A DNA stretch of 40,772 bases from assembly GCF_903946935.1 (NCBI RefSeq), contig NZ_CAJAXH010000144.1, forward strand, positions 1 through 40,772. Reading direction: 5' to 3'. Below, one piece after another: positions 6,077-38,586 of this stretch. The first letter of the stretch is position 1, and each line of letters begins with the position of its first letter. The translations under genes and the position numbers were made by a program. The stretch comes from an uncultured Thiodictyon sp. GTDB taxonomy: Bacteria > Pseudomonadota > Gammaproteobacteria > Chromatiales > Chromatiaceae. The notes under the pieces are model-generated. The model did no database searches. It was not told the origin of the DNA and saw nothing but the letters and a program-made list of their open reading frames with translations.

Positions 6077-6153
<77 letters not shown>

Positions 6154-12468: not shown

Positions 12469-12483
12469 TGCGCATGGCACTTT

Positions 12484-12605: not shown

Positions 12606-12661
12606 GCCGGCGGTTCTCCGTTACCCTGCACCGGTCGCCGACGCTTCGACCGAGATACCAC

Positions 12662-13123: not shown

Positions 13124-13135
13124 ACCCGATGGTCG

Positions 13136-13163
13136 TTCTTGGCGATCTTGGCGCCTTGGCGTG
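13136..13163 (+). repeat. CTTGGCG-type dispersed repeat arm
   Basis: This is a copy of the repeat arm (TTCTTGGCGATCTTGGCGCC, then TTGGCGTGGG) lying between ogt and xerD. It is nearly identical to the right arm of the element at 14112-14226. Confidence 0.55.
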
Positions 13164-13196
13164 GGCAATTTCCGAGTTTAGGCTGAAGGGGGCGCG

Positions 13197-18386: not shown

Positions 18387-19616
18387 ATGACAGTGATCGC
18401 TGGCCGGTTATCCGCAAGACACTCGGTCATCGCCGCGGCACTACTTATCGCGGCATTGCTCTTAGTCTATGCGGTCAGCGATCGAAGTAAAGCCGCCAAT
18501 GCCTCCGCGCCACCGGCATTGCGGGGAGATTGGGGCGGGTCGTTCGGTTTTAGCGGAAAAAAGTATCCGATCCTATACAATCATGAGTCGATGTCCTTGC
18601 CTGGGAATGTCAAAAACCATGGATTTTTTCTGCCCACATTTTCGCCTGATCGACCTGAAGTAAATCCCGGGTCGCCGCGTATCGTGGCCGCTGGCGAAAA
18701 CACCCTTGTGTCTTTCGATGTGCCCGGGGAGTATTACCTGATCTTCAGTGAGGTTGCGAAGCTAAAGGTTCTGGTATTGGACCGAGATGCGGCGATTTCA
18801 GCGAACGTACTCAGGTTGTTTGATTTCTTGACGGCAAATCTTGTAGTCACCAATGGTAATGACCGAGACTTTTATGAAAACAGGGAGCAATTCACGGTCG
18901 ATTTTTTTAAGAGCAGCGGCCCGAAGTTATTGTTCTGCGGCCCGACGCTGCTGCTCTTTGAGGCGCTCATAAGGGATCGCTTTAATCTTCCCGCCCGGGA
19001 CGTGAGCTTGACCGGCGTATTCCTGGAGGAGGGGCAGCTTAGGTACTCTACCCACAACGTGCTGGAAATTTTCTTGCCGGATAAGGGGCGCTGGGTGCTG
19101 TTTGACGTGAATAATGGGCTTGTCATAAAATGGCTAGATAGCTTTGAAATCACAGAGAAAATACGGCGGGCATCGAAAACCAAACAGACCATCGCCAAGG
19201 ACGAGTTCGAGTCTATCGATTTCGACTTCCACTATGTGGTCGATGCCAAGCATAGCGTCAACTTCTTTGACCCGCGGAGCGCCTTTGCTCCCGACATGAT
19301 CTCCCAGGAGAGCGTGCGCGCCGGCTGGCCGGGGGTGGCCAAGATGTTCTTAGGCGGGCCCGGGTATTGGGGCGGGCCGCGATTCGGCCACCGGGGATTA
19401 CCGCCGGACTATGAGCTCTATTTAAGTTGGTACCATGAGGACCCGTTTCTATTGACCGCGCAACTGAAATGGCAGGAAAGTTGGGGTGTAAGGGTGCGTC
19501 ACGTTCCACGGCTGGAGCTTAAGCGAATGCTGAACCAAGCGTATGCAAAACAAATTGCCGAAAAGGCCTGGTTGCCTTATCTGCCTCAACCGAATCAAAA
19601 TGCGACTGCCCCTTAA
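18387..19616 (+). CDS. Membrane-anchored transglutaminase-like protein
   Basis: A 409-residue protein with one N-terminal membrane segment (about 13-30, VIAAALLIAALLLVYAV) and the rest outside the cytoplasm. I do not recognise a named family over the full length, but residues 180-245 fit a transglutaminase-like core: Cys184 in FCGPTLLLFEAL, His223 in STHNVLEIF and Asp240 in WVLFDVNNG. The order and spacing (39 and 17 residues) and the preceding LPARDVSLTG strand agree with Cys-His-Asp transglutaminase/protease folds. The rest (Trp- and Tyr-rich, GGPGYWGGPRFG) is unique. It sits between a membrane protein and two glycosyltransferases, so a role in polysaccharide processing or attachment is plausible but inferred. 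Confidence 0.65.
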   Translation: MTVIAGRLSARHSVIAAALLIAALLLVYAVSDRSKAANASAPPALRGDWGGSFGFSGKKYPILYNHESMSLPGNVKNHGFFLPTFSPDRPEVNPGSPRIVAAGENTLVSFDVPGEYYLIFSEVAKLKVLVLDRDAAISANVLRLFDFLTANLVVTNGNDRDFYENREQFTVDFFKSSGPKLLFCGPTLLLFEALIRDRFNLPARDVSLTGVFLEEGQLRYSTHNVLEIFLPDKGRWVLFDVNNGLVIKWLDSFEITEKIRRASKTKQTIAKDEFESIDFDFHYVVDAKHSVNFFDPRSAFAPDMISQESVRAGWPGVAKMFLGGPGYWGGPRFGHRGLPPDYELYLSWYHEDPFLLTAQLKWQESWGVRVRHVPRLELKRMLNQAYAKQIAEKAWLPYLPQPNQNATAP

Positions 19617-23659: not shown

Positions 23660-24424
23660 ATGTTTTCCATCGAGCACCTGCATACCCTTCGCGCCCACGA
23701 GCTCGAACAGATCGTCGCCCAATTCCCCCCGGGAGCTAACATCCTGGAGATCGGTGCCGGGACTGGCGCGCAGGCCCAGGAGCTGTCCAGGCGCGGTTTC
23801 CAGGTCACGGCCATCGACCTGCCTCAGTCCAGGTACAGTGCGGATCGGGTCTATCCCGTGATCGACTACGACGGCCGCTCGCTGCCATGCGCCGACGCGA
23901 GTTTCGACGTGGTGTTCTCATCCAATGTGCTGGAGCACGTACCCGACCTGGCCCCGCTCCAACAGGAGATCAAACGGGTGCTCAAACCCGCCGGCTATTG
24001 CGTCCACGTCCTTCCCACCACGAGTTGGCGCTTCTGGACCTCGCTCGCCGCCTTCGCGGATGCCTGGTCCAGGATCAGGCCCCGGCTGCACGAACTGCTG
24101 CCGCAGCGGTGGCGCCGCGGCGAGGTGAGCCGGCTGCACATTGTGTGGGCCGAGGTTGGGCGAGATGTGCGTGAGCCCTTTACCCCAAAACCCCATGGGG
24201 AGATCGGTAACGCCGTCACTGAACTCTGGACCTTCAGTCGCACCCGGTGGGTGCGCGAGTTCCGCCGGCAGGGTTTCGTGGTCGAGGCGGCGCAACCCAT
24301 GGGGCTCTTCTATACCGGCTATATGGTTTTCGGGGCACGTTGGGACCTGCCGCGGCGCCAGCGCCTGGCGCCCTGGCTGGGGAGCGCCTGCTGCATCTAT
24401 CGTCTGCGACCAGCGATGCGGTAA
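23660..24424 (+). CDS. Class I SAM-dependent methyltransferase
   Basis: A 254-residue enzyme with SAM motif I ILEIGAGTGAQAQEL near residue 29, the acidic end of strand 2 in VTAIDLPQ, the YDGRSLPCADASFDVVFSSNVLEHV block typical of Methyltransf_11, and RVLKPAGYCVHVLPT. It probably methylates a sugar or lipid-linked glycan. The ATG at 23660 is preceded by AGAGG and starts 20 bases after the previous stop, so it belongs to the same operon. The C-terminal third (WDLPRRQRLAPWLGSACCIY) is unlike other methyltransferases here. Confidence 0.88.
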   Translation: MFSIEHLHTLRAHELEQIVAQFPPGANILEIGAGTGAQAQELSRRGFQVTAIDLPQSRYSADRVYPVIDYDGRSLPCADASFDVVFSSNVLEHVPDLAPLQQEIKRVLKPAGYCVHVLPTTSWRFWTSLAAFADAWSRIRPRLHELLPQRWRRGEVSRLHIVWAEVGRDVREPFTPKPHGEIGNAVTELWTFSRTRWVREFRRQGFVVEAAQPMGLFYTGYMVFGARWDLPRRQRLAPWLGSACCIYRLRPAMR

Positions 24425-24469: not shown

Positions 24470-26332
24470 ATGTGTGGTATCGCTGGCCTGATCGATCTTG
24501 GCGGCGGGTTCGGACCCGATGGTTTGGCACGCATCGTCACCGCGATGCGCGACACCATGGTCCACCGCGGGCCTGACGCCGCCGGGGTCTGGGTCGATCC
24601 GGACGGCCGCTGCGCCCTGGCACATCGCCGTCTGTCCATCATCGACCTCTCCGCGGACGGCCGTCAGCCGATGGGCAACGCCGACGGCTCGGTGCAGGTC
24701 ACCTTCAACGGTGAAATCTACAACTTCCAGGGGCTGCGCGACGACCTCATCGCCGGCGGCCACCAATTCCACTCGCACACCGATACCGAGGTCATCCCGC
24801 ACCTCTTCGAGTCATTCGATCCCGACCAGGTCAAGCAGTTGGACGGGATGTTTGCCTTCGGTGTCTGGCACCGCGCGACCCGCCGCCTGCTCCTGGCCCG
24901 GGACCCCTTCGGCAAAAAGCCACTGTACTACGCCCAGGGGCCAGGCTGGTTCGCCTTCGCCTCAGAGCTGCAGGCGCTGACGCGGGTCCCGGGATTCGAC
25001 GCCACCATCGACCAGGATGCACTGGCCTATTACCTGCTGCTCCAGTATGTGCCGGCGCCCGTCAGCATCTACCGCTCGGTCCGCAAGCTGCTGCCCGGCT
25101 CCACCCTGGTGGTGACGACCGACACCGACACGATCCGTGTCCATGAGCCGCAACGCTACTTCCGCTTCACGCCCATTGAGCCGCCGGGCCGCGGCGGCCC
25201 CTCGTTCGCCGAGCGCGAGGAGGAGTTACGTCTGCGCGTGCGCGAGGCGGTGCGCAAACGCCTGATGAGCGACGTGCCGCTCGGCGCCTTCCTCTCCGGC
25301 GGGGTGGACTCGGCGCTGGTCGTCGCCATGGTGACGCAAGAACTGGGTCGCCCCTTGAGCACCTTCTCCATCGGCTTTGGCGGGACCACGGAGACCGAAC
25401 ACGAGTATGCCCGCGAGGTCGCGCAGCACCTCGGCACCGATCACCACGAGGCGATCCTGGAGCCCGATGCACTGCAACTCGTCCATGAGATCGCCGACCG
25501 GCTGGACGAACCCAATGGGGACTCCTCCTGCCTGCCGACCTACCTGCTCTCGCGCTATACCCGCGAACACGTCACGGTGGCCCTCTCCGGGGACGGCGGC
25601 GATGAGCTCTTCGGCGGCTACGGACGCTATCGCGACACCATCATGGAGCAGGGCAGCCACCTCCAGCGCCTGGTGCGTACCCTGCGCAACCGGCGCGGCT
25701 ACACCCCGGCGGACGGTTATCTGTCGCCACGCTGGCTGACCTTTCAGCCCGAACAGGTCGGTTCGCTCACCGGCGGGCTGCCCGCCGCCGTCGTGCAGTC
25801 ACTGGCGCAGTGGCGCACCGCGCTCAATGATCCCGCGCAGCCCCTGATGCACCGGATGCGCGCACTCGACGCCGAGACCTACCTGCCCGGGGCGGTCTTG
25901 CCCAAGGTCGACCGGATGAGCATGCAGGTCTCGCTGGAGGTCCGCTGCCCCCTGCTCGACCGGGACCTGGCCGAACTGGCGCAGGGGATGCCCCTGTCAG
26001 CCCTCTGGCAGCCGCCCGCCGAAACCAAGCGCATCCTCAAACAGCTCGCCATCCGCTACCTGCCGGCGGACTGGATGAAGCGGCGCAAGATGGGATTCGG
26101 ACTACCTTCCAGCGCCTGGTCCCAGGAGGCCACGCTCGCGCTCGCCCGCGACCTGCTGCTGGCACCGTCCAGCCAACTCGGCGGGCTGCTTGATGCGGCG
26201 CCGCTCAAGGGGTTGGTGGAGCATCAGGCGCGCCCCGGCGGCTTCTCGGTCTATCAGGTCTGGCCCTTGCTGATCCTGGAACTGTGGCTGCGCCGGGCCG
26301 CCGACCACGCAACCGCGGTTGACACGGCCTGA
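24470..26332 (+). CDS. asnB: AsnB-type glutamine-dependent amidotransferase
   Basis: A 620-residue enzyme of the glutamine-hydrolysing asparagine synthase family. The processed N-terminus MCGIAGLIDLGGG exposes catalytic Cys2 of the class II glutaminase domain (about 1-190, with HRRLSIIDLS and FNGEIYNF). The synthetase domain begins near 215 and has the PP-loop SGGVDSALV near 277. LSGDGGDELFGGYGRY and EVRCPLLDRDLAELAQ follow. Within polysaccharide clusters such proteins often amidate sugar acids or precursors, so true asparagine synthesis is not certain. The start follows an AAGGAG ribosome binding site. Confidence 0.93.
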   Translation: MCGIAGLIDLGGGFGPDGLARIVTAMRDTMVHRGPDAAGVWVDPDGRCALAHRRLSIIDLSADGRQPMGNADGSVQVTFNGEIYNFQGLRDDLIAGGHQFHSHTDTEVIPHLFESFDPDQVKQLDGMFAFGVWHRATRRLLLARDPFGKKPLYYAQGPGWFAFASELQALTRVPGFDATIDQDALAYYLLLQYVPAPVSIYRSVRKLLPGSTLVVTTDTDTIRVHEPQRYFRFTPIEPPGRGGPSFAEREEELRLRVREAVRKRLMSDVPLGAFLSGGVDSALVVAMVTQELGRPLSTFSIGFGGTTETEHEYAREVAQHLGTDHHEAILEPDALQLVHEIADRLDEPNGDSSCLPTYLLSRYTREHVTVALSGDGGDELFGGYGRYRDTIMEQGSHLQRLVRTLRNRRGYTPADGYLSPRWLTFQPEQVGSLTGGLPAAVVQSLAQWRTALNDPAQPLMHRMRALDAETYLPGAVLPKVDRMSMQVSLEVRCPLLDRDLAELAQGMPLSALWQPPAETKRILKQLAIRYLPADWMKRRKMGFGLPSSAWSQEATLALARDLLLAPSSQLGGLLDAAPLKGLVEHQARPGGFSVYQVWPLLILELWLRRAADHATAVDTA

Positions 26333-26560: not shown

Positions 26561-27439
26561 GTGAAGACGATTATGGTCCGCGCGTTCCCCAAGCGAGCCC
26601 TGACGTCAATGAATCCTCACCAGGAACACCCTGCGACCGGTCGTGCTTTAGTTTTGAGTCTTTGGCGCAACCGTAGCCTGATCAACCAACTGGTCCGCCG
26701 TGAAGTCATAGGACGCTATCGCGGCTCTCTTCTCGGGGTCGCTTGGTCATTCTTCAATCCCATCCTCATGCTCCTCGTGTACACCTTCGTCTTTTCCGTG
26801 GTGTTCAAGACCCGATGGGGAGTGGCGGAGAGTGCCAGTCATGCGAGTTTTGCCATTATTTTGTTCGTAGGGCTGATTGTGCATGGGCTCTTCGCCGAGG
26901 TTGCCAATCGCGCCCCGCTGCTTATTTTCACTAACGTCAGCTATGTCAAACGCGTTGTCTTTCCGCTCGAAGTATTACCCTGGGTCGCCATGGGGTCGGC
27001 GCTGTTCCATGCCGCGATCAGCCTTACGGTACTACTGCTCGTGCAACTCGTAATTATGGATCAGTTACCCTGGACCCTGATACTATTCCCCGTCATCCTC
27101 GCACCATTGATACTGACGACCATGGGTTTCGCATGGTTCCTTGCGGCGATCGGCGTTTACGTACGCGACATCGCCCAAACCATGGGCATTATTACCAGCG
27201 TGATGTTGTTCATGGCGCCAATTTTCTATCCAATCACTTCGCTTCCGCATCGGATGCAGCTAGTGTTGTATCTCAATCCACTCACTTTCATCATTGAGGA
27301 GGGGCGCAACGTGCTATTATTCGGACGGCTGCCTAACTGGGGCGGCTTGATCGTTTACACCGCCGTAAGCATGGTGACTGCGTGGGCCGGATTTTGGTGG
27401 TTCCAAAAGACACGCAAGGGGTTTGCCGATGTCGTCTGA
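26561..27439 (+). CDS. wzm: Polysaccharide ABC exporter permease (Wzm)
   Basis: A 292-residue inner-membrane permease with six hydrophobic segments, the ABC-2 pattern of Wzm/KpsM/RfbA. The cytoplasmic entry LVRREVIGRYRGSLLGVAWSFFNPILMLLVYTFVFS is the family hallmark, and APIFYPITSLPHRMQ and NPLTFIIEEGRN are conserved late motifs. It forms the channel for undecaprenol-linked glycan. The GTG at 26561 is one possible start; ATG at 26573 and at 26609 (MNPHQEHPATG) are alternatives, and the last fits the family best. The stop overlaps the wzt start by 11 bases, so translation is coupled. The 228-base gap upstream looks less GC-rich and may contain a promoter, but I cannot fix one. Confidence 0.9.
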   Translation: MKTIMVRAFPKRALTSMNPHQEHPATGRALVLSLWRNRSLINQLVRREVIGRYRGSLLGVAWSFFNPILMLLVYTFVFSVVFKTRWGVAESASHASFAIILFVGLIVHGLFAEVANRAPLLIFTNVSYVKRVVFPLEVLPWVAMGSALFHAAISLTVLLLVQLVIMDQLPWTLILFPVILAPLILTTMGFAWFLAAIGVYVRDIAQTMGIITSVMLFMAPIFYPITSLPHRMQLVLYLNPLTFIIEEGRNVLLFGRLPNWGGLIVYTAVSMVTAWAGFWWFQKTRKGFADVV

Positions 27440-28790
27440 ACCGATCGTGATCCGCGTCCAGAACCTGGGTAAGTGTTATCAAATATATGACCGGCCGCAG
27501 GATCGGCTAAAGCAATCCCTGGTGCCGCGTTTACGGGGCCTACTAGGCAAATCAGCCCCTAACTACTACCGCGAGTTTTGGGCACTGCGCGACGTATCCT
27601 TTGAGGTACGCAAGGGGGAGACCGTCGGCATCATCGGTCGCAACGGCTCGGGAAAGTCGACCCTCTTGCAGATCCTCTGCGGGACCCTGAACCCCACGAC
27701 CGGGACCGTGGAGACCACCGGCCGCGTCGCGGCGCTGCTGGAGCTCGGCGCCGGCTTCAATCCCGAGTTCACCGGGCGCGAAAATGTCTATCTGAACGGC
27801 AGCGTGCTGGGTTTGAGCCAGCAGGAGATCGACGAACGCATCGCGGCCATCGCCGCCTTCGCGGATATCGGCGCATTTCTTGACCAGCCGGTGAAGACTT
27901 ATTCCAGCGGAATGTACGTCCGGTTGGCATTTGCCGTCATTGCCCACGTCGATGCAGACATACTGGTCATCGATGAAGCATTGGCGGTGGGTGACGTATT
28001 CTTTGCCCAAAAATGTATGCGGTTCCTGCGCTCATTCATGGCGCATGGTACTGTGATATTCGTAAGTCACGACACGGCCGCCGTGCAGAACCTGTGCCAA
28101 CAGGCCATCTGGATCGACTGCGGTATTATCAAGTTTATCGGCTCGGCAAAGGATGCAGCAACGAGATACCTAGAGGCGATATACGAGTCGCAACAGGGCG
28201 AAAGTAAATTGACCGCCGCGGCGGTTGCGACGACGGAACCCAAGAGCACTCCGAGCCCCCGGGACATGCGGTTGGATTTCCTTAATCAGACGCAGTTCAG
28301 AAACGATATCGAGCTATTCAGTTTCGATCCCGACGCACCAGCGTTCGGCAAAGGTCAGATACGCGTCACATCTGCCGCATTGCTTGATCCAGAGGGCAAG
28401 CCGTATTCTTGGGTGGTCGGTGGCGAAGAGGTCATCCTGGAAATCCGATGTGTGGCACTCACAGCAATCCCTGCGCTGATTGTCGGATTCCTCGTGAAAG
28501 ACCGCCTGGGTCAACCCTTGTTTGGCGACAACACGTATCTGACCTATCGAAACGCCCCGTGTAATCTTGGCCCCGGCGAGAAAATAACAGCGCGTTTTGC
28601 GTTTCGCATGCCGGTCTTGCCGGTTGGAGATTTCAGCGTGACGATAGCGGTGGCCGAAGGTAGCCAGCAAGATCATATCCAACACCAATGGATACACGAC
28701 GCGCTGACTTTCAAGTCGCACACCACCAGCGTCTGCCAGGGCTTAATCGGCATTCCCATGAAGAAAATAGAACTGACTCCTGCAATTTGA
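27429..28790 (+). CDS. wzt: Polysaccharide ABC exporter ATPase with sugar-binding domain (Wzt)
   Basis: A 453-residue ATP-binding component. Walker A GRNGSGKST is near residue 69, the signature YSSGMYVRLAFA near 158, Walker B ILVIDEALAVGD near 178, and the H-loop VSHD follows. From about residue 280 an extra C-terminal domain (beta-sandwich-like, IRVTSAALLDPEGKPYSW ... LGPGEKITARFAF) matches the Wzt_C type, which in some O-antigen systems reads the modified non-reducing end of the chain before export. The true start is the ATG at 27429; an upstream TTG is in the same frame but unlikely. It overlaps wzm, and the large fusion gene begins 38 bases after its stop. Confidence 0.92.
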   Translation: MSSEPIVIRVQNLGKCYQIYDRPQDRLKQSLVPRLRGLLGKSAPNYYREFWALRDVSFEVRKGETVGIIGRNGSGKSTLLQILCGTLNPTTGTVETTGRVAALLELGAGFNPEFTGRENVYLNGSVLGLSQQEIDERIAAIAAFADIGAFLDQPVKTYSSGMYVRLAFAVIAHVDADILVIDEALAVGDVFFAQKCMRFLRSFMAHGTVIFVSHDTAAVQNLCQQAIWIDCGIIKFIGSAKDAATRYLEAIYESQQGESKLTAAAVATTEPKSTPSPRDMRLDFLNQTQFRNDIELFSFDPDAPAFGKGQIRVTSAALLDPEGKPYSWVVGGEEVILEIRCVALTAIPALIVGFLVKDRLGQPLFGDNTYLTYRNAPCNLGPGEKITARFAFRMPVLPVGDFSVTIAVAEGSQQDHIQHQWIHDALTFKSHTTSVCQGLIGIPMKKIELTPAI

Positions 28791-28828: not shown

Positions 28829-31800
28829 ATGGAATACCCAACACTTGCCCGCGCGGCAATCGTAAGACCTGATCGACTCGGCCGCCCCAGCACATGGAAC
28901 GGCCACGTTCCCTTTGCGATCTGGTTAGTTGAGTCACTTAAGCCAAAGGTCATCGTTGAGCTTGGCACACATTATGGTATTTCCTATTTCAATTTTTGCC
29001 GCGCCGTAAAGGCCGCCGGTTTAACTACAAAATGCTATGCGATAGACACTTGGGAGGGTGATGAACATGCCGGACATTACGGAGAGGCAGTATTTACCGA
29101 TGTTCATCAGCATAACGAGACAAATTATCCCGATATTTCACGCTTGCTGCGAATGAAATTTGATGAGGCGGTCGACTATTTCTCGGATGGATCAATCGAC
29201 CTTTTGCATATTGATGGCCTCCATACCTACGACGCAGTCAAGAATGACTTTGAGCGTTGGCTTCCCAAGCTCACGCCTTCTGCAGTCGTGCTGTTTCATG
29301 ATACCAACGTCAAGGAGCGGGAATTCGGAATTTGGCGGTTCTGGGAGGAACTCGCTCGCAGTTACCCACTCAGCCTCGAATTTGTCCATTCCCATGGCCT
29401 GGGCGTGCTGCAACTCACGCAAGGAAGCGATAGCTTTTACCTGGATTGGCTTGCTCCGGAGTCATTAGACAGGCGGCTGCTGGTCGAGTATTTCAGTGCC
29501 CGAGGAGCCGAGATAGAGCAGCAGTATACCAATCACCGCCTGCTGGCAGAACGCGACGCAACCATTGCCCAGCTTCAGCATCTGCTGGCAGAACGCGACG
29601 CAACCATTGCCCAGCTTCAGCATCTGCTGGCAGAACGCGACGCAACCATTGCCCAGCTTCAGCATCTGCTGGCAGAACGCGACGCAACCATTGCCCAGCC
29701 TCAGCATCAGCTAGCGCAGCGCGACAGACAGATAAATGTACTGCAGCAGGGGTTACGCAAGTGCTGGGAAGAAATCGCGGAACTCAATCAGTCGCTCTCC
29801 GTGTCGAGCGCGGAGATCGCCAGCCTCACCCAACGGGCAACAGAACGCGACTCAATGGCCAGTTCGACCTCTTGGCGAATGACTCGACCGCTGCGCGCAG
29901 CGGTCGGGATTCTACGTGGCGAACCGGCCTACATTGCGAACCTGCGTAACATGCGTAATATGCACAGTCAACCACAGAGCGCAGGGGCGTGTGCGTTGAT
30001 CGAACCGCAGAGCGAGACTCCTGCTGAGGTCACGTTTGAAGCCCCTGCGGGGACCGCGACTGATGCCCCAACCGGCCTGTCGACGGCCCTTCGCATTGTA
30101 TACATCAGTGGTGAGGCACATACACCGGGACACTACTACCGGGTCGTTCGCTATGCCGAGTCGGCAAGCGCTGTGGGTGCCGACGTGACAATGATTCGTA
30201 TTGAAGACAGCGCAGAGCGGATGATCGAAATCGCGACAGCGCAGGTCGTGGTAATCTGGCGCGCCGCCTGGTCGGAGCGAGTCGCCGCTGTGATCGCTAC
30301 GGCACGCCAAGCCGGAGCACGAATCGTCTTTGATGTGGACGATCTGCTGATCGATCCCGAGCTGGCCCGCCGTGAAGTGGTTGATGGCATCCGCAGCCAG
30401 AACTTTGCGGAAGAGCAGGTACGCGAATTGTTTGTTCTGATGCGACGGACCATGATGGAAGCTGATTTATGCACGGTAACCACGGAGGGACTCGCAGCGC
30501 ACATACGTCGAGTCAATATCCCGACCCTCGTCCTGCCGAACGGCTTCGACGAGGCGACCCTGACGATTGCCAGGCTGGCCGCCCGTAGGCGCGCTGCCGC
30601 CCCGAGCGATGGCCTCCTGCGAATCGGCTATGCCAGTGGATCGGCCACCCATCAACACGATTTCGCACTCTGCGCCCCTGCGGTTGCGGAAGCGCTGCGC
30701 TTGCGCCCGCACGCGCGGCTTGTGCTGTTTTGGGATAACGAGTGGCACCGGCCGCTCCTCGACATAAAGGAGTTTCCCGAGCTGTTGGGCCTTGATGACC
30801 AGATCGAATGGCGCGACCGCGTGCCCCTCGATCGCCTGCCGGAGGAGGTCGCACGTTTCGACGTCAATCTCGCCCCACTTGAGGTTGGCAACCTGTTCTG
30901 CGAAGCCAAGAGTGAGCTGAAGTTCTTTGAGGCAGCGCTCTGCGATGTTTGCACCATCGCCTCTCCGACCGAACCCTTCCGGCGTGCCATGCGACATGGA
31001 GAAACCGGCTTTTTGGCCGGTACGGTGAATGAGTGGCGCGAGGCCTTGGCGCAGTTGCTTGACGATTCCGGCCTGCGCTCGCGCATGGCACGGGCGGCAT
31101 ATCGCGATACGCTATGGACCTTCGGGCCGGAACGACGGGCAGAACGGGTGGCGTCAATGTTCGACCACCTCCGCGGCGGACGCGCTGCGGCGCGCGCCTT
31201 CGCTCTCGACCTTCAGGCCGCACGGCAGCCGGCCCCGCTCTTGTCACTGCCAGAATACGAAACCGTTTTCAGGAGCGACCGGCTGGGCCACGCGGAGGCC
31301 ACCGTCATCGTTCCGTTGCACAACTATGCACATTACGTCGAAACTGCGCTCGACTCCGTCGCGCAGCAGACCCTGCGCGACCTTGATCTGATCGTGATCG
31401 ACGACGCCTCGAGCGATGACGGTCTGGGCGTCGCCTGTCGCTGGGCTGAGATCAATTCGGCGCGCTTTAACCGCCTGCTGGTGCTGCGAAATTTATCGAA
31501 CGCCGGCCTCGGACCGACGCGCAACCTTGGCTTCGACGTAGCGGACACCCCCTTCGTCTTGCCGCTTGATGCCGATAACCGACTCCTGCCGGACTGTCTC
31601 ACGCGCTGTTTAGCAACAATCCGCACCGCCCGTGCGGCCTACGCCTATCCAGTGATTCGTCAGTTCGGCGCTGCGCAGGACACCATGGGCGTCGCTTCCT
31701 TCGATCCGTTGCGCCTCATCGCGGCGAATTTCATCGACGCCATGGCCTTGGTCTCCAAGGCGGCCTGGACGCTGATCGGCGGCTACGACAACGTCCGCTA

Positions 31801-32875
31801 CGGATGGGAGGACTACGATTTCTGGTGCCGACTCGCCGAACATGGTCTAACCGGCGAGGCCGTCGGTGGTGACCCGCTCGCGGAGTACCGGGTACATGGG
31901 GCATCAATGTTGCGCACGACCACCGATTCACGGGACAACAAGCGTCGCTTGATTGAGGACTTTGAGCAGCGCCACCCATGGGTCGGTATCATCAACCGGC
32001 CCGCATCGCACGAGTCGCGTGCCGTCCCCGCGAACCCCAACGACGGCGCACGCCTTGCTTCTCTGCTGGAGTTGCTACGTTGCCCGGAAACCAGCCAGCC
32101 GCTGGAATTCGCAGAAAACGGCGGATTGCGCACGGCAGACGGGGCGAGGCATTGGCCCGTACTCGCTGGTCGGCCAATTCTTTTCCCTGGAGTTGAGGCC
32201 CCAAGCGTTCATCCCGCAGACCACATCAGTAACCCGCTACCCCCGCATGTTGTCGACCGTATTCGGGCGACCGATGGCTTAGTGCTGAATCTCTCGGCCG
32301 GCGGCACAGCGGAGCGACTGCCGAACGTGATCGAGGTGGAGGCGGCGATCTTTCGCCATACCGACTTGGTGGCCGACGCCCACCATCTGCCCTTCGCCGA
32401 CCAAGTCTTCGACGGAATCCTCGCACTGAATGCCTTTGAGCACTATGCGGAACCGCAACGTGCCGCCGCAGAGATCCACCGATTACTGAAGCCGGGCGGG
32501 TGGGTGCTGATTCAGACGGCGTTCTTGCAGCCCGCACACGAGACTCCCTGGCATTTCTACAACTGTACGAAGCACGGGCTGCTACATTGGTTTGCAGATT
32601 TCGCAGTCGAGCAGATCCATGTCTCCGAGAACTTCAATCCAGTGTATGCCATCGCCTGGCTGGCGTCGGAGTGCGAATCCGCCTTGCGACTGGATATTTC
32701 CCCCATCGCTGCGGATGGCTTCCAGTCGACGCCGATTGGCGCTCTGGTCGCCGCTTGGCGCGACGCAGGGCAACGCAGCGGTCAGGTCTGGGACAGTTTC
32801 CACAGTTTGTCCCAATCAACCCAAGACGCGATTGCCGCAGGGTTTGAATTCGTCGGACGGAGGGTAGAGAAATGA
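28829..32875 (+). CDS. Fusion: methyltransferase, coiled coil, GT4, GT2, methyltransferase
   Basis: A 1348-residue multidomain enzyme. Residues 1-210 are a class I methyltransferase (VIVELGTHYGISYFNF, LLHIDGLHTYDAVKNDFERWLPKL). Residues 238-350 are a coiled coil whose first part is four 14-residue repeats. About 418-787 is a GT4-like transferase (VYISGEAHTPGHYYRVVRYAE, VLPNGFDEAT, EAKSELKFFEAALC). About 805-1045 is a GT2 transferase (TVIVPLHNYAHYVETALDSV, IVIDDASSDD, DADN, GYGWEDYDFWCRL). About 1075-1122 is a Trm112-like zinc-ribbon remnant (LLELLRCPETSQPLEF), and about 1145-1300 is a second methyltransferase (VADAHHLPFADQVFD, LLKPGGWVLIQ). The ATG at 28829 is chosen because no family sequence precedes it; longer starts overlap wzt. 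The last four bases overlap the next gene. It probably completes or caps the exported chain. Confidence 0.85.
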   Translation: MEYPTLARAAIVRPDRLGRPSTWNGHVPFAIWLVESLKPKVIVELGTHYGISYFNFCRAVKAAGLTTKCYAIDTWEGDEHAGHYGEAVFTDVHQHNETNYPDISRLLRMKFDEAVDYFSDGSIDLLHIDGLHTYDAVKNDFERWLPKLTPSAVVLFHDTNVKEREFGIWRFWEELARSYPLSLEFVHSHGLGVLQLTQGSDSFYLDWLAPESLDRRLLVEYFSARGAEIEQQYTNHRLLAERDATIAQLQHLLAERDATIAQLQHLLAERDATIAQLQHLLAERDATIAQPQHQLAQRDRQINVLQQGLRKCWEEIAELNQSLSVSSAEIASLTQRATERDSMASSTSWRMTRPLRAAVGILRGEPAYIANLRNMRNMHSQPQSAGACALIEPQSETPAEVTFEAPAGTATDAPTGLSTALRIVYISGEAHTPGHYYRVVRYAESASAVGADVTMIRIEDSAERMIEIATAQVVVIWRAAWSERVAAVIATARQAGARIVFDVDDLLIDPELARREVVDGIRSQNFAEEQVRELFVLMRRTMMEADLCTVTTEGLAAHIRRVNIPTLVLPNGFDEATLTIARLAARRRAAAPSDGLLRIGYASGSATHQHDFALCAPAVAEALRLRPHARLVLFWDNEWHRPLLDIKEFPELLGLDDQIEWRDRVPLDRLPEEVARFDVNLAPLEVGNLFCEAKSELKFFEAALCDVCTIASPTEPFRRAMRHGETGFLAGTVNEWREALAQLLDDSGLRSRMARAAYRDTLWTFGPERRAERVASMFDHLRGGRAAARAFALDLQAARQPAPLLSLPEYETVFRSDRLGHAEATVIVPLHNYAHYVETALDSVAQQTLRDLDLIVIDDASSDDGLGVACRWAEINSARFNRLLVLRNLSNAGLGPTRNLGFDVADTPFVLPLDADNRLLPDCLTRCLATIRTARAAYAYPVIRQFGAAQDTMGVASFDPLRLIAANFIDAMALVSKAAWTLIGGYDNVRYGWEDYDFWCRLAEHGLTGEAVGGDPLAEYRVHGASMLRTTTDSRDNKRRLIEDFEQRHPWVGIINRPASHESRAVPANPNDGARLASLLELLRCPETSQPLEFAENGGLRTADGARHWPVLAGRPILFPGVEAPSVHPADHISNPLPPHVVDRIRATDGLVLNLSAGGTAERLPNVIEVEAAIFRHTDLVADAHHLPFADQVFDGILALNAFEHYAEPQRAAAEIHRLLKPGGWVLIQTAFLQPAHETPWHFYNCTKHGLLHWFADFAVEQIHVSENFNPVYAIAWLASECESALRLDISPIAADGFQSTPIGALVAAWRDAGQRSGQVWDSFHSLSQSTQDAIAAGFEFVGRRVEK
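29540..29707 (+). repeat. Four tandem 42-bp repeats coding for coiled coil
   Basis: Units start at 29540, 29582, 29624 and 29666. The first three are identical; the fourth has one T-to-C change that turns Leu to Pro. Each encodes LLAERDATIAQLQH, two heptads with Leu2, Ile9 and Leu12 at hydrophobic positions. A degenerate fifth unit (QLAQRDRQINVLQQ) follows. Near-perfect identity suggests recent expansion or gene conversion, and loss or gain of whole units would keep the frame. Confidence 0.95.
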
Positions 32876-33954
32876 GCGACCGGAGCGAGCAACTTCTATG
32901 CGGGCTAACCAAGACCGATCGAATTATTGAAATTGGGCCGCTGCACGCGCCAATTGCCCCAAAAGCGGAGGGTTGGGCAACGACTGTGGTCGATCACGCG
33001 CCGCGTGAAGAACTGCTTGCGAAATATATGGGGCATGAGCACGTCGATCCAGAACTTATCCAAGAAGTGGATGTCATCTGGTGCGGAGGGACGTTGCATG
33101 ATGCATTCCCCGCCGAAGAGCAAGGCGGCTACCACGCACTCATCGCCAGCCATGTCATCGAACACGTACCCGACGTCATCGGCTTTCTCGACTCGGCCTC
33201 AAGGCTGCTGGATCCACAGCAAGGTGTTGTGGTCCTTGCCATCCCCGATAAACGCTGGTGCTTCGATCTCTTCAAGCCAGTCAGCACCACTGGACAGATG
33301 TTGGCGGCGCATCGCACTCGTTTGGTGCGACATTCTCCCGATAAACTGTTTGACCATGCAGCCTACTCTGCCTCTAACCGTGGTGTCGACTGCTGGGGGC
33401 GGGCTAAGTTGTCCGATGTCCGCTTCTACGTGCGACTGGAAGATGCGAAGTTGGCCTTTGACGCCTGGAGTGACGCTCCCGACGCCCCCTATGTCGACAG
33501 CCACGCGTGGCAGTTCACCCCGTCGAGCTTCGAACTGCTGATCCTCGAGCTCGGCGAGGTTGGAGCGGCGGATTGGCGGATCGATTGGATAGCAGAGCAG
33601 CCAAACGCTGAATTTTCGCTACATCTGCGTCGTGGACGCCAGCGATTCGCCAGCCTGAAAGAGCGTGATGCTCGACGGATCGAACTTCTCAAAGGAATTG
33701 CGCGCGAGTTACGGGAACAGGCCAATTGGCAACTCGAAGACCCGATCGCATCCGATGCCGATGCAGTCGCATCGGATAGTGTTGGTACCGTGCCCGACAG
33801 CAGTGCATCCGTTGTTGCTGCGACCGCCGCACGACTCAACCAAATCGAGGCTGACCTCGGCAGGTTGCACGAGAGCTTACGTCCGGTACATTCCCTGCTG
33901 TCGACACTGCTACCCATGCGACGCATAGTCGCCCGCTTACGCGGTCGCGTTTGA
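32872..33954 (+). CDS. SAM-dependent methyltransferase with C-terminal coiled region
   Basis: A 360-residue protein starting inside the stop codon of the fusion gene (ATGA overlap), with which it must be translated together. Residues 15-140 show a methyltransferase pattern: IIEIGPLHAPIAPKAE, a VDHAP strand, HALIASHVIEHVPDVIGFLDSASRLLDP, and AIPDKRWCFDLF. Motif I is unusual (EIGPLHAP in place of ExGxGxG), as seen in some polysaccharide-cluster methyltransferases. Residues 255-350 are charged and helical, with a predicted coiled coil around RLNQIEADLGRLHESLRP. It may modify the same glycan or partner the preceding fusion protein; this is inferred. Confidence 0.82.
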   Translation: MSDRSEQLLCGLTKTDRIIEIGPLHAPIAPKAEGWATTVVDHAPREELLAKYMGHEHVDPELIQEVDVIWCGGTLHDAFPAEEQGGYHALIASHVIEHVPDVIGFLDSASRLLDPQQGVVVLAIPDKRWCFDLFKPVSTTGQMLAAHRTRLVRHSPDKLFDHAAYSASNRGVDCWGRAKLSDVRFYVRLEDAKLAFDAWSDAPDAPYVDSHAWQFTPSSFELLILELGEVGAADWRIDWIAEQPNAEFSLHLRRGRQRFASLKERDARRIELLKGIARELREQANWQLEDPIASDADAVASDSVGTVPDSSASVVAATAARLNQIEADLGRLHESLRPVHSLLSTLLPMRRIVARLRGRV

Positions 33955-34025
33955 AGTTAACGGCAGACGGACTCCGGGGAGTTCCTGAGCAAAATCGATT
34001 TTGGCAACTAGGTAGCGGAGAACAC

Positions 34026-34748
34026 ATGAACGCAAAAATGAAATTTTACGCAGAAAGACTTTATTTTAGAATCATAGATGGCTTGCATTACCCATTTATT
34101 AGGCGTGGCGCCGATGATCCATATCACGCGGCTTTGAATGAATTTATTTCTCTAACCAAAGGCGTACCCTCCCCATCAATTTTGGAAATAGGGTCAAGAG
34201 ATGTCACTGGCATTACGCGAAAGAACCTTTTCCCTCATTGCGCCGAATATATTGGCTTCGATATATTTGCCGGGAATGGTGTAGATGTCGTTGGTGATGC
34301 CCATAAGATATCCGATCGATTTCCCTTGGGGCATTTTGATTTCGTTTATTCAATATCAGTATTTGAACACCTTTTGTTTCCTTGGAAGGTCGTTCTGGAA
34401 ATCAATAAGGTAGTGAAGGTAGGAGGATATGTGTTTTTGTCAACTCATCCCGTATGGCCAGCACACGAACTGCCTTGGGATTTCTGGCGTTTTCCGCGCA
34501 ACGGCTTTCACGCGCTATTCAACAAGTACACCGGATTTAGGATAGTCTCTCTTACCGAGGGGTTGCCTTGCAAGACTTACTCACTCGTCGATGACGCTGC
34601 AACACGAGGTAATTGTTTCGAGACAATGAATCAAGGGGTTGCATTGATTGCCGAGAAGATAGGTGACTATCGCAGTGACTTATTGAAATGGGATATAGAC
34701 GTGTCTGACGTTGTAGATACTATGTATCCGAGTAAGCGCCCCGGCTAA
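34026..34748 (+). CDS. SAM-dependent methyltransferase, low-GC
   Basis: A 240-residue class I methyltransferase: SILEIGSRDVTGITRKNLFP near residue 50, YIGFDIFAGNGVDVVGDAHKI, FDFVYSISVFEHLLFPWKVVLEINKVVKVGGYVFLSTH, then HELPWDFWRFPRNGFHALF. The last motif resembles HETPWHFYNCTKHGLLHWF of the fusion protein, so the two enzymes are related. The ATG at 34026 follows GGAG at a proper distance; upstream non-ATG starts are unlikely. The gene is visibly richer in A and T than its neighbours, which suggests recent transfer. It ends the plus-strand cluster. Confidence 0.87.
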   Translation: MNAKMKFYAERLYFRIIDGLHYPFIRRGADDPYHAALNEFISLTKGVPSPSILEIGSRDVTGITRKNLFPHCAEYIGFDIFAGNGVDVVGDAHKISDRFPLGHFDFVYSISVFEHLLFPWKVVLEINKVVKVGGYVFLSTHPVWPAHELPWDFWRFPRNGFHALFNKYTGFRIVSLTEGLPCKTYSLVDDAATRGNCFETMNQGVALIAEKIGDYRSDLLKWDIDVSDVVDTMYPSKRPG

Positions 34749-35472: not shown

Positions 35473-37005
35473 TCACCGCATCTCCACGAGAGTTGGATCA
35501 CTTAGGTTGAAGTCCAAGCATACATTAGTTGAGTCAATATCTAATCGCAGACGGCGAACACTCCCCTTCTCAGTCCATCCCGGTATCGTATGCAAATCAA
35601 TCAGACGCACCCCAGGATCAAGGACAAATTTGACGCTGCGTTCCTCGTCGAAATAGGGCTTTTCGTCGCTTAGCCAAAACAACTGTATCGGCACCTTACC
35701 TGCATTGTCACCGCAACTCAGACCAACGCTCAGAAAAGATGCCTCCCGCGCTAAGATTGGGGCAGCAAGCTCGTACACGACAAATGGATCCGGTCCCGTC
35801 GATCGGTATTCACCAGGCGCGCTTCCGTGGCTAACACCATGCAACTCTACGGGTATCGTCGTGCGGACAAGCGTGAAGCCTGGCCGTTGCTCAATGACGC
35901 TTACCGGCGGATAGGCAGCAAAAAACTTATATCTCGATAAACGCTCTACGACGGTAACAAACACGTAGTCGGGTTTCCATTTTTCGACCAACTCAGCGAA
36001 CCGCCCGCCGGGCTTCAACGCCGCCAACCAATGGAGTTGAAGAGTTTCCGAAAACGTGGCTGCCATCATAGGTGAAAGCGAGACCCCAAATGAGTCGCGT
36101 AGCCACAGCACTCGATTATTGTTGAGGGCACCCACCGAGGAGACCAAGAGTGGTTTATCCGGTGAACCAACTGGGGGATTTCCGCCTCTGCTGATAATTA
36201 CTCCGCTATCAAAATCAGATTGCGTAGTCTCAATCGCCAACTCTGGCGCGACCACGGAAGGCTCTAAATCCTGCAGATAGTCTGCCATTCGCAGAAAATT
36301 CGCAAGGTCGCCACCTTTACGTTGCGCAAACCCTTTTACCTCAATAGCCGAGTCGGTGGGCCAGCGAAGCTCTGGCAATGAACGCCCCACTTCCCGCGCA
36401 AAGGCCCGGAAGGCAATCGCTGCCGCTAGCGAATTCCAGTGATGATCCACATGATAATAAAGTTCGTCCCGGTTGGACGTCTTAGCGGATAGCAATGCGG
36501 GGCGTAGATCGATCCAGCGCTCTGTTCCCGTCCCGGCAAGCAAAGCATCAGTGGCCGTTGGCCTAGCCAGTGAAGGCTTGGCCCAGGCGGGCAAATACTC
36601 TGGATAAATCGTCTCCTTATTCGGTGCGATCATTACTCGAAACAGCCGGACCCCCTTGCCCGCCAACCAGCGTTCCCATGCCAAAGTGGCCGCCCCAATT
36701 CGCTGGCCCGCGTCCACCTCCGCAGGTGTCTGACCACGCCGAGTCACCGTGCGTGATTCCTCATACTGATCCCCCAAGTAGAGCCAGCCCTCGCGACCGA
36801 CGACGACCTGCTCCGGGTCGGTGCTGATACCTATCGGATAAAGAGCCCGACTCAGCCACCGCGACATAAAGTCCATGTTGTAAAGAAACTGTCTTTTCCA
36901 CCAATGTTTTCCATCCAATCCCTGAGTCGACAACACATTGGCGATCGGCACAAGAGTCAGGCAGCATAGAACCACCGACAGCATAATGAAGACGCGTCTT
37001 TTCAA
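35473..37005 (-). CDS. AlgJ/AlgX-like O-acetyltransferase, SGNH hydrolase-like
   Basis: A 510-residue exported or membrane-anchored protein. One hydrophobic segment at about 5-25 (VFIMLSVVLCCLTLVPIANVL) anchors or exports it. The AlgX/AlgJ-like catalytic pattern is present: VDHHWNS with Asp187 and His189, and the nucleophile Ser305 in RDSFGVSL. It would take acetyl groups delivered across the membrane by the MBOAT partner and place them on a polysaccharide in the periplasm. The C-terminal 150 residues are beta-rich and may bind glycan. It is the second gene of a two-gene operon, 11 bases after the MBOAT stop. Composition is less GC-rich than the core genes. Confidence 0.88.
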   Translation of the reverse strand: MKRRVFIMLSVVLCCLTLVPIANVLSTQGLDGKHWWKRQFLYNMDFMSRWLSRALYPIGISTDPEQVVVGREGWLYLGDQYEESRTVTRRGQTPAEVDAGQRIGAATLAWERWLAGKGVRLFRVMIAPNKETIYPEYLPAWAKPSLARPTATDALLAGTGTERWIDLRPALLSAKTSNRDELYYHVDHHWNSLAAAIAFRAFAREVGRSLPELRWPTDSAIEVKGFAQRKGGDLANFLRMADYLQDLEPSVVAPELAIETTQSDFDSGVIISRGGNPPVGSPDKPLLVSSVGALNNNRVLWLRDSFGVSLSPMMAATFSETLQLHWLAALKPGGRFAELVEKWKPDYVFVTVVERLSRYKFFAAYPPVSVIEQRPGFTLVRTTIPVELHGVSHGSAPGEYRSTGPDPFVVYELAAPILAREASFLSVGLSCGDNAGKVPIQLFWLSDEKPYFDEERSVKFVLDPGVRLIDLHTIPGWTEKGSVRRLRLDIDSTNVCLDFNLSDPTLVEMR

Positions 37006-37016
37006 GATAAACAGAC

Positions 37017-38516
37017 TCAGAAATTAAAGTAAAGGAATACGGAACTCGTTTCCGAAAGGGTGAAATACATCGCCATACTGAACAGCAGGCTTCCGAACAA
37101 TACCTTGCCCATACCAAGGTCCCCTTGCGACATTTCAAGTGAATTCTTCTGACGCAAGACCACGAATGCGGCAATGATTGCAAGGTAAGTGATTGTATGC
37201 GGCACGAGGCTGGCCGGCAGGAAACGCAGCAACGTGTCCGACATCCATCCACCCCAAGCCAGCCCGGCAGTGGGAGTCTCAGCTACGGTCTGTCCTAGAG
37301 CGCCACGGATGTCGACCATGCCATGCAACACTCGCATTGCATCGGTCATAGTCTTGGCACGAAAGAACACCCACGCAACATTCACGAACACAAACGTCAT
37401 AGTCCAGGCCAGCAGCAGCGGCATTGGACGCCCAAACCGCTGCCAAAGGCGGTGCACCACAAGCGCGGTACCATGTAGAGCACCCCAGATCACGAACATC
37501 CAGGTCGCACCATGCCAGAGGCCGCCAAGGACAAAAGTGGCGATAAGATTAAGGTATGTACGAAATACAGATGAACGATTACCACCCAATGGGATATAGA
37601 GGTAATCACGGAGGAATTTGCTCAGCGTGATATGCCAACGACGCCAAAAATCCTGAATATTTCGCGCTTTATAGGGAGAGTTAAAATTGATTGGCAGCCA
37701 AATATTGAAGAGCAGCGATGCACCGATCGCCATGTCGCAGTAGCCGCTAAAGTCAAAGTATAACTGAAAGGTATATGAAACACTGGTAGCCCAGGCAGCA
37801 AAAAAACCGAGGGGTTGCCCGCCGTCAAATCCCGCGCTTGCCCATACTGCAAAGGTATCGGCGATGACAACTTTCTTGAATAGCCCAATAGCGAAGATAA
37901 ACAGACCTTTTAGGATATTCGAATAACGTAGCGCTAACGTCCAGCGTGACCCGAACTGCGACATGATGTCACGGTGATGAACAATCGGGCCGGCTATCAA
38001 ATGTGGAAAAAATGTTACGAACAGAGAATAGTTCAGCAAATCATATTCCGCCGTTTCCCCACGATAGCTGTCGACCAGATAAGCGATCTGGGTGAAGGTA
38101 AAAAAACTGATCGCAAGCGGCAATACGATGTGATGAAGAGGGTAACCAGCCCCGAATAGTACATTGATATTCGTAATCAAAAAATCGGTATACTTGTAAT
38201 ACCCAAGAAGCACGAGATTTGCCAAGATGCCTGTCGCCAATACTACTTTTCTGTTCAAATCATGATGGCGCACAGGCAGCGGCCGCAGAATTTCCCGGTA
38301 CCCCTGCGCGAGACCACTGCCGATGGCAAAATTCAATAATATCGACGCCAAGATCAGCGGCACATAACTAACATCCCAATAAGCGTAGAAATACAAGCTG
38401 GCCGCTACTAGCCACACCTTTCCAGCAACAATCATTCTCCTGCCATTTAGCCAAAAATAGACGAAGAACGAGATCGGTAAGAACGCGAGAATGAATTGCC
38501 ATGTACTAAAGAGCAT
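37017..38516 (-). CDS. MBOAT-family O-acyltransferase (AlgI-like)
   Basis: A 499-residue membrane protein with about ten hydrophobic segments. It carries the MBOAT pattern: FDFSGYCDMAIGASLLFNIWLPINFNSPYKARNIQDFWRRWHITLSKFLRDYLYIPLGGNR, then GGLWHGATW with His335 and GALHGTALVVHRLW with His348. It is expected to move acetyl groups across the inner membrane for the AlgJ/AlgX-like protein encoded next. I chose ATG 38516 (MLFSTWQFILAFLPISF), the standard AlgI-type start; an upstream ATG at 38558 would add 14 hydrophilic residues. A MITE sits 71 bases upstream. Confidence 0.92.
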   Translation of the reverse strand: MLFSTWQFILAFLPISFFVYFWLNGRRMIVAGKVWLVAASLYFYAYWDVSYVPLILASILLNFAIGSGLAQGYREILRPLPVRHHDLNRKVVLATGILANLVLLGYYKYTDFLITNINVLFGAGYPLHHIVLPLAISFFTFTQIAYLVDSYRGETAEYDLLNYSLFVTFFPHLIAGPIVHHRDIMSQFGSRWTLALRYSNILKGLFIFAIGLFKKVVIADTFAVWASAGFDGGQPLGFFAAWATSVSYTFQLYFDFSGYCDMAIGASLLFNIWLPINFNSPYKARNIQDFWRRWHITLSKFLRDYLYIPLGGNRSSVFRTYLNLIATFVLGGLWHGATWMFVIWGALHGTALVVHRLWQRFGRPMPLLLAWTMTFVFVNVAWVFFRAKTMTDAMRVLHGMVDIRGALGQTVAETPTAGLAWGGWMSDTLLRFLPASLVPHTITYLAIIAAFVVLRQKNSLEMSQGDLGMGKVLFGSLLFSMAMYFTLSETSSVFLYFNF

Positions 38517-38586
38517 CGTTGCTTGGTACTGATGAAATGAATGGACGGCGTTTGCCAAAACGAAATACGAGTGGGCACTAAAGACA

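Follow-up and report, generated by a model that had tools for sequence, protein, structure and literature searches.

Proteins in which a coiled coil acts as a ruler have been described as chain terminators (PMC11231755), and in two Klebsiella systems of that account terminator, ruler, and polymerase share a polypeptide. WbbB of Klebsiella O12 is described as holding all the required enzymes, with a beta-Kdo transferase as its terminator. ORF6 of Klebsiella pneumoniae O7, from a wzm/wzt cluster, is described as an N-terminal methyltransferase-kinase, a predicted carbohydrate-binding module, a central coiled coil, and two C-terminal glycosyltransferase (GT) modules, both of them GT2; it ends polymerisation with a methylphosphate cap (PMC11231755). 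Here we consider a fusion protein of similar design, encoded at 28829..32875 (+) in 40,772 nucleotides of DNA (the window, i.e., the whole stretch analysed) from an uncultured Thiodictyon sp. of the family Chromatiaceae, very likely a purple sulfur bacterium. By architecture it is a variant of WbbB and O7 ORF6: a putative N-terminal capping enzyme, a coil, and C-terminal GT modules lie in one open reading frame (ORF), and the gene sits with wzm and a wzt whose product has a cap-reading domain. Its terminator would be a methyltransferase, unlike that of WbbB. Unlike O7 ORF6, with which it was compared by description only, it has no kinase, its transferases are a GT4 and a GT2, and it ends in a Trm112-like methyltransferase.

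Other systems share parts of this design. E. coli O9a makes a methyl-phosphate cap, and its WbdD combines a methyltransferase, a kinase, and a coiled coil, the capped chain being recognised by Wzt; WbdD has no GT modules, and the polymerase, WbdA, is separate (PMC3482155). The initial annotation of the window likened the fusion protein to WbdD. The analogy is loose: a methyltransferase followed by a long coil is present, but there is no kinase profile, so the protein is not a WbdD, and the methyltransferase resembles cation-dependent O-methyltransferases. For the MT protein of E. coli O101/O162 (also compared by description), the published account seen covers only a methyltransferase domain and a C-terminal coil, both matched in the window, and O-methylation of the chain is attributed to terminal capping (PMC13168486). 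In Aquifex aeolicus WzmWzt, whose chain is of rhamnose/mannose, a pocket of the Wzt C-domain (Leu300, Thr346, Ala348, and Trp362) holds the 3-O-methyl group of the cap; Trp362 stacks on the methyl, and its replacement by Leu essentially abolishes the binding of lipopolysaccharide by the isolated domain (PMC9445017).

We think it probable that the window protein builds a glycan, measures it, and caps it with an O-methyl group read by the adjacent Wzt. The product would be an ABC-exported surface glycan, probably O antigen. The GT4 and GT2 modules would lengthen a chain carried on undecaprenyl at the face of the membrane. The N-terminal O-methyltransferase, held away from there by the coiled coil, would be within reach only of chains that had grown long enough. 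Once it had O-methylated the terminal sugar at the non-reducing end (at the 3-O position, if the analogy with A. aeolicus holds), elongation would cease, and the methylated end would be recognised by the C-domain of the neighbouring Wzt, whereupon export would start. The C-terminal methyltransferase would most likely modify the chain or an adaptor sugar. The proposal draws on the order of terminator, coil, and GTs, which is that of WbbB and O7 ORF6 as described (PMC11231755); on the identification of the N-terminal module as an O-methyltransferase by Pfam and by fold, beside a Wzt that keeps all four A. aeolicus pocket residues; and on Lamprocystis purpurea, where capping module and reader change together while the flanks stay.

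The initial annotation had suggested that capping, ruler, and chain building might be combined beside a cap-reading Wzt and took this for an undescribed arrangement. The first part gains support from the exchange of capping module with reader and from the pattern of reader residues; the logic itself was already described for WbbB and O7 ORF6 (PMC11231755). What is new here is the joint swap of writer and reader in L. purpurea, the Trp/Arg pattern in the readers, and the enrichment of repeat arrays in the coils. A wider proposal, quite possible in our judgment but tentative as a whole, would tie these together. The cap reader, encoded by the 3' part of wzt, and the cap writer and ruler, encoded by the 5' part of the gene that follows, would move as a single cassette, with exporter and polymerase conserved on either side; Trp in the reader would go with neutral methyl ethers and Arg with anionic caps; sulfotransferases of two families would be unreported terminators making sulfate caps; and ruler length would evolve by gain and loss of units that preserve the phase of the coil.

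The fusion protein and its modules

The gene is a single stop-free ORF that begins 38 bases past the wzt stop at 28790 and encodes 1348 residues. An alternative in-frame ATG at 28688 would give 1395 residues at the cost of a 103-base overlap with wzt. Residues 12-197 (28862..29419, +) form the N-terminal O-methyltransferase module (MTN), the proposed chain terminator, in which Pfam finds Methyltransf_24 (PF13578, residues 43-159, E 1.9e-28). An AlphaFold2 model of residues 1-425, with a mean predicted local distance difference test score (pLDDT) of 79, has a methyltransferase fold and then one continuous helix of 132 residues (213-344). In a Foldseek comparison of the MTN model with the PDB, O-methyltransferases head the list (3ntv, SafC, TrmR, TomG; also Rv0187-like), and the 50 matches listed (E 8e-10 to 4e-8, identity 10-17%) are all methyltransferases or relatives by fold. 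The predicted fold is of the cation-dependent O-methyltransferase type (SafC/TrmR/TomG), and conserved Asp and His columns in an alignment of 15 MTN sequences, 26 columns of which are invariant, suggest metal dependence. The best sequence match in the PDB is 6g7d (E 2.5e-5), which we take to be the mycobacterial methylmannose 1-O-methyltransferase MeT1.

The helix (29465..29860, +), the proposed ruler, begins soon after the methyltransferase in the model, and no Pfam kinase profile matches the fusion protein at E 0.01. It contains a 42-bp tandem array (29540..29712, +; 4.1 copies, 98% matches) whose unit encodes 14 residues, or two heptads. Past the coil lie a SSTSWRMTRPLR hinge (residues 345-356) and short helices (29861..29956, +), which may serve as a membrane-proximal anchor; a regular expression found a hinge-related motif in 32 of 80 MTN-bearing proteins. 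The GT4 module follows at residues 422-794 (30092..31210, +; two Pfam GT4 profiles within 610-774, and custom profiles); against the PDB it matched nothing at 0.01. The GT2 module occupies residues 817-1053 (31277..31987, +; Glycos_transf_2 at 825-956, E 9.8e-21, and custom profiles). The tail, MTC, at residues 1074-1345 (32048..32863, +), is a Trm112-like ribbon with a class I methyltransferase (Methyltransf_11 at 1180-1228, E 2.4e-13, and custom profiles). Its AlphaFold2 model (mean pLDDT 82) has a methyltransferase fold, and the Foldseek matches listed, among them AtmM, RlmA(I), and the Trm112-Hvo_0019 complex, are all methyltransferases or fold relatives. A profile of the C-terminal part matches the Trm112-like UPF0434 structures 2pk7, 2jr6, and 2js4 and class I methyltransferases in the PDB.

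The reading of these modules in the initial annotation, a single protein of methyltransferase, coil, GT4, GT2, Trm112-like remnant, and second methyltransferase just past a Wzt with a C-terminal sugar-binding domain, is borne out by the open ORF, by Pfam, by the custom profiles, and by structure prediction at both ends. Remnant is a fair name, since one Cys is all that remains invariant in the Trm112-like part across 14 aligned sequences.

The genome is a draft assembly of 321 contigs and the coil holds near-identical repeats, so one might suspect a chance or misassembled ORF, or a gene split by frameshifts in the real genome. For the fusion this is hardly credible. One genome scan confirmed 134 relatives, and 80 loci were kept (loci are numbered with L). 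The full order MTN-GT4-GT2-MTC recurs, by custom profiles, in 8 of the 80 (L023, L024, L025, L026, L027, L035, L077, and L080), in Siccirubricoccus, Variovorax, and metagenome-assembled genomes, and a relative on a Roseomonas plasmid covers 87% of the query, in two pieces. The recurrence argues that the fusion is no assembly artefact; the copy number of the 42-bp repeat could nonetheless be mis-assembled. The same loci rule out the notion that the architecture is unique.

Exchange of the proposed cap writer and reader in Lamprocystis purpurea

L. purpurea (L053), of the same genus as the window genome, carries a closely similar locus, and L107, of the same family, served as a control that keeps MTN. 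Identity between the window and L. purpurea is 78-79% for Wzm, 70% for the Wzt ATPase domain, 67% for GT4, 67% for GT2, 72% for the tail, and 68% for the methyltransferase MT360 encoded just past the fusion. It drops to 24% in the part of Wzt past the ATPase domain and to 24% in the N-terminal module of the fusion, which in L. purpurea is a sulfotransferase (PF13469, Sulfotransfer_3, E 1e-6) in place of MTN; the sole match of this module to the PDB was an irrelevant designed protein. In the control, MTN is 71% and the C-part of Wzt 62% identical to the window. L213, of the same family, has 3' of wzt a gene that starts with a sulfotransferase 49% identical to that of L. purpurea. The L. purpurea Wzt_C is 61% identical to that of L213, and its Wzm is 78% identical to the window's versus 70% to that of L213.

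Sliding identity places the switch inside wzt. A maximum chi-square on informative sites puts the breakpoint close to residue 154 (numbered on the called L. purpurea Wzt ORF): window-like sites number 22 of 28 before it and 14 of 129 beyond it, with p 0.0005 over 2000 permutations. When L107 serves as the other parent, the breakpoint moves to residue 179 at the same p. In trees built from parts of the ATPase domain, the closest neighbour of L. purpurea is the window for the first 135 residues (86%) and L213 for the remainder (82%). Within the fusion, similarity to the window returns near residue 350, at the hinge past the coil. The simplest reading of these sequences would be one exchanged cassette, consisting of the late ATPase domain, the reader, a 19-base gap, the writer, and the coil. 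The mosaic amounts to a natural domain-swap experiment on the matching of exporter to cap.

Capping classes and the reader residue

Surveys for Wzt_C gave a match in 85 of 194 genomes of the family and 62 of 275 of the class, and the flanks of part of the matches were used. Capping classes were obtained by clustering N-terminal sequences encoded up to 1500 bases 3' of wzt, from the nearest gene or the nearest two, the loci already named included. Wzts whose ATPase domain scored at most 318 bits on a custom profile were left out (42 of 76 were kept in the first set); the joint set kept 63, and setting aside 11 without a class left 52 labelled rows. Methyltransferases make up MTN, MTH (Methyltransf_23, from one of eight members scanned with Pfam), MTK (a weak Methyltransf_24, one of four), MTF (Methyltransf_11, one of five), c7 (a Pfam call for two members scanned out of three), and c9 (from L138). 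Class ST is Sulfotransfer_3 in the four of five members scanned, the fifth, L198, being placed by custom profile and 93% identity to L196. Class c10 is FkbM-like (from L132), and c11 has an N-terminus without assignment. MTN lies in the first gene 3' of wzt in 14 of the 21 MTN rows, one gene further in L065, L070, L073, L085, L087, and L107, and upstream of wzt in L090.

On a Wzt_C tree of the 52 labelled rows, the classes require 11 changes (minimum 8; shuffling the labels gives a mean of 29.3, and none of 200 shuffles came down to 11), a clustering that near-copies among the rows make easier. ST forms one starred clade on both this tree and that of the ATPase domain. The notion that Wzt_C tracks capping class and the ATPase domain does not was dropped, with 6 versus 6 changes on whole-domain trees in the first set and 11 versus 12 in the joint set. 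Only the mosaic analysis separates Wzt_C from the ATPase domain.

The window Wzt has Trp423 (28689..28691, +) aligned with Trp362 of A. aeolicus, and the equivalents of Leu300, Thr346, and Ala348 are identical too; the residue at the place of His350 is Ala (PMC9445017). Together with its C-terminal PF14524, this predicted methyl-cap pocket places it, by sequence, with the O-antigen exporters that depend on a carbohydrate-binding (Wzt_C) domain. Eight columns named in PMC9445017 were inspected across the 63 Wzts. The Trp362 column holds Trp in 37 of 38 labelled Wzts from four unlike methyltransferase classes (MTN 21/21, MTH 8/8, MTF 5/5, and MTK 3/4, where L212 has Met) and Arg in ST (5/5), c7 (3/3), and c11 (2/2). 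The 11 unlabelled rows have three Trp, three Arg, and five other residues. A four-residue pocket common to all methyl types was rejected: among labelled rows only the window and L059 keep all four, and the remaining MTN rows keep two or three.

Arg also stands at this place in 2r5o, which aligns with c7 at E 1.6e-23 and L. purpurea at E 2e-4 and is presumably the C-domain of E. coli O9a Wzt, a reader of methyl phosphate. Because c7 resembles 2r5o, its cap may possibly be methyl phosphate. The c7 methyltransferases, with their Arg-type readers, adjoin the sulfotransferase clade, and a clean split of Wzt_C into methyl and non-methyl readers was abandoned.

Three unlabelled loci with Arg were examined after the Trp/Arg view had formed. 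In L128, the second gene past wzt (6148-8460) encodes a sulfotransferase of another family (Sulfotransfer_2, PF03567, residues 25-255, E 7e-25) with weak coiled-coil profile matches and a GT4, and further down lies an APS kinase gene (1495-2100, E 3.7e-70). L125 has a short gene with a sub-threshold sulfotransferase match (E 0.1), and in L229 no clear capping enzyme was recognised. Nor was one in two loci with Trp, L129 (ORF list only) and L203; L116, also with Trp, runs off its contig. The argument from Trp and Arg rests on unlike families of writers sharing one type of reader. If the pairing is real, a single reader residue and a single adjacent domain would allow the chemistry of the cap, and with it some of the O-antigen end group, to be inferred from genome sequence, and the end signals for export would include sulfate besides methyl, methyl phosphate, and Kdo.

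A search of the literature, mostly outside subscription papers, met no sulfate terminator with a Wzt/Wzm O antigen in the parts of the sources seen. For Aeromonas salmonicida, a small gene with a sulfotransferase domain is reported to lie between wzt and the wbbB gene, and no corresponding residue was found in the O-antigen structure given there (PMC4483657); a review of cyanobacteria mentions sulfotransferases, in the portion consulted, only as modifiers (PMC4390846); and the Cobetia capsule has sulfation and a kps-type exporter, with no sulfate terminator in the portion of that account seen (PMC11766843). Three sulfotransferase-coil-GT4 loci of the family (L172-L174) have no Wzt_C-type Wzt within the fetched stretch, and L173 has ATPases without Wzt_C.

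Distribution of the modules

GT4 and GT2 share an ORF in 34 of the 80 loci, and 11 of these 34 lack MTN. By inspection of loci, the GT4-GT2 core is preceded by another or a divergent methyltransferase in L037, L042, L043, L056, and L057, and by a sulfotransferase in L. purpurea and in L055 of Kiritimatiellae (the latter by custom profile); nothing recognisable lies N-terminal to it in L004 and L040. These varied beginnings make the N-terminus of the fusion, as far as sequence can tell, an exchangeable module. The initial annotation proposed a survey of genes adjacent to wzt for the same domain order. The window is such a case; of the eight other full-length loci, only one (L024) has a Wzt_C-type Wzt within the stretches examined, some of which stop at contig ends. 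Wzt adjacency is therefore not general to the full architecture.

MTN-coil proteins are also encoded in E. coli loci of capsule type (L163 8869-11598, L164 8869-11442, and L166 5896-8634), with an export protein, a permease, an ATPase, and a KpsE-like protein; two of these loci lie beside gspL/yghD and one on a plasmid. Seven such proteins have 857-912 residues, with 531-576 residues from methyltransferase to hinge, and the L163 gene has DNA relatives in 51 of 5426 E. coli genomes.

Terminal cap or internal modification, matching or linkage

Several observations weigh against a methyl cap matched to its reader, and two other accounts make use of them. In one, MTN would be an internal O-methyltransferase acting on repeat units, the coil a mere scaffold, and length set elsewhere; the sulfotransferase of the relatives would likewise sulfate repeats. 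The cluster indeed holds several methyltransferases, and the tail, MT360, and the next gene product, MT265, could methylate internally, as could MTN. Also, MTN occurs in 63 of the 80 loci, and just 19 of the 63 have a Wzt_C-type Wzt within the stretch examined (L. purpurea counting among the 19 only through a separate MTN copy). Five MTN loci have an ATPase without Wzt_C, and MTN is present as well in the E. coli loci of capsule type, whose small ATPase has no annotated Wzt_C domain, so reading by Wzt_C is not required for MTN function. Sulfated capsules with ABC export exist, as reported for Cobetia (PMC11766843). Against all this, MTN occupies the distal end of the coil, the position of terminators in the characterised systems described (PMC11231755); in L. 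purpurea, a sulfotransferase has taken its place in an exchange that also covers the cap reader; and the residues of the methyl-cap pocket are retained in the window Wzt. We consider internal modification improbable.

In the other account, reader and capping module would co-vary through linkage, neighbouring DNA being exchanged together with no need for the cap to match. The exchanged stretch is contiguous, and the whole ATPase domain clusters by class about as well as Wzt_C does (12 changes; shuffled mean 29.5; 0 of 200). On the Wzt_C tree, the ten labelled rows with Arg group together as a single starred clade, and a single origin of Arg is therefore possible. Methyltransferases do not always go with Trp: c9 has Tyr (2/2), FkbM-like c10 has Leu (2/2), and Tyr stands also in L024 (fusion at 7854-13822), the one other full-length fusion with a Wzt_C-type Wzt. 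There, MTN begins 735 bases past wzt with another methyltransferase gene between; the row was left unlabelled, and counting it as MTN would make the tally 37 of 39. In L128, a Methyltransf_24 gene directly follows the Arg-type wzt, the sulfotransferase fusion coming second. A separate caution concerns the single cassette. In L. purpurea, wzm too carries a mosaic signal, a weaker one (p is 0.0015 when the window is taken as parent and 0.06 when L107 is), and two or more pieces may thus have been exchanged; the species also keeps a downstream MTN copy in a 747-residue MTN-WsaF protein (L053 14391-16634), a degenerate one that has lost the near-invariant G50, H80, D129, H132, D140, and D158 (window numbering).

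Linkage with no matching nevertheless seems to us somewhat unlikely. Coupling weakens with distance from the reader, from 11 changes on Wzt_C to 13 on the later part of the ATPase domain and 16 on its first 135 residues (the latter two from quick trees of 53 rows with a minimum of 9, so that rows, tree quality, and minima differ from those of the Wzt_C tree). Trp is kept across the four unlike methyltransferase classes, and Arg accompanies two sulfotransferase families, PF13469 and, in L128, PF03567, the latter encoded by the second gene.

Repeats in the coil

If the coil is a ruler, its repeats may bear on how the ruler changes. Arrays were called at a TRF score of at least 90, a period of at least 18, and at least 80% matches among 2009 genes of the loci examined. 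They occur in 16 of 109 capping genes versus 26 of 1900 others (Fisher p 1e-10, the comparison group being all other genes), or in 5.1 versus 1.0 genes per 100 kb of coding sequence. The 26 include several genes for coils after wzt and a GT4-GT2 fusion (L056) not classed as capping. The best unit has a residue count composed of 7s and 11s in all 16 capping arrays and in 14 of the 26 others; of the lengths from 6 to 60, 55% can be composed in this way. Any coiled coil tolerates units of 7a+11b residues.

Differences between close relatives are in part whole units. L196 and L198 (936 of 1001 aligned residues identical) differ by 72 residues, or two 36-residue units; two Bacteroidota records differ by 21 residues in a coil that is otherwise 100% identical; and E. 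coli MTN-coil proteins (88% identical) differ by 42. Other coil indels were of 25, 4+7+4, and 1 residues. Our literature search, with the same restriction as above and judged by its listings, found nothing on variation in repeat number of such rulers. The near-identical units provide a natural length series for the ruler model, with three versus one 36-residue unit in two closely related genomes.

Perhaps, however, the repeats have no meaning for a ruler, and slippage duplicates units in coiled-coil genes generally. This is possible, though we lean away from it. The tolerance of coiled coils for such units and their presence in 14 of the 26 control array genes speak for slippage, and the enrichment of arrays in capping genes speaks against it, although a general coiled-coil effect would be compatible with the enrichment.

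Arrays of heptad type were seen in coil genes 3' of wzt without an assigned capping class (L181, L183, L191, L211, L215, L216, L217, and L223), and the coil of the capping gene at L112 4869-7502 has 117-bp units (4.2 copies, 96% matches).

Neighbouring genes

The exporter genes directly precede the fusion. Wzm, an ABC-2 permease, is encoded at 26561..27439 (+; PF01061, ABC2_membrane, E 7.5e-25) and Wzt at 27423..28790 (+), with an ATPase domain at residues 8-251 (PF00005, ABC_tran) and a C-terminal cap-reading domain at residues 296-451 (PF14524, Wzt_C, E 8.2e-34), both also found by custom profiles; the C-domain matches the A. aeolicus Wzt structures 8dky, 6o14, and 7k2t. Past the fusion come MT360 (32872..33954, +; PF13489), found also 3' of the GT4-GT2 gene in L003, L023, L024, L035, and L053, and MT265 (33951..34748, +; PF13489/PF08241). 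Upstream of wzm lie, by Pfam, two more GT4-containing proteins (19638-21509 and 21570-23639, +), then a methyltransferase (23660-24424, +) and an asparagine-synthase-like amidotransferase (24470-26332, +). Two ORFs further upstream, at 15723-18359 (878 residues) and 18387-19616 (409 residues), have no Pfam match at E 0.1.

The window's genome encodes two further Wzt_C proteins (C222:4532-4930 and C140:4663-4980), whose C-domains score low on the window-type profile. Upstream of the glycan cluster are a SNF2 helicase with a SWIM finger (8861-12151) and a tyrosine recombinase (13197-14093), and convergent to it, at 35473-38558 (-), is an AlgX-like and MBOAT pair, a set of O-acetylation type.

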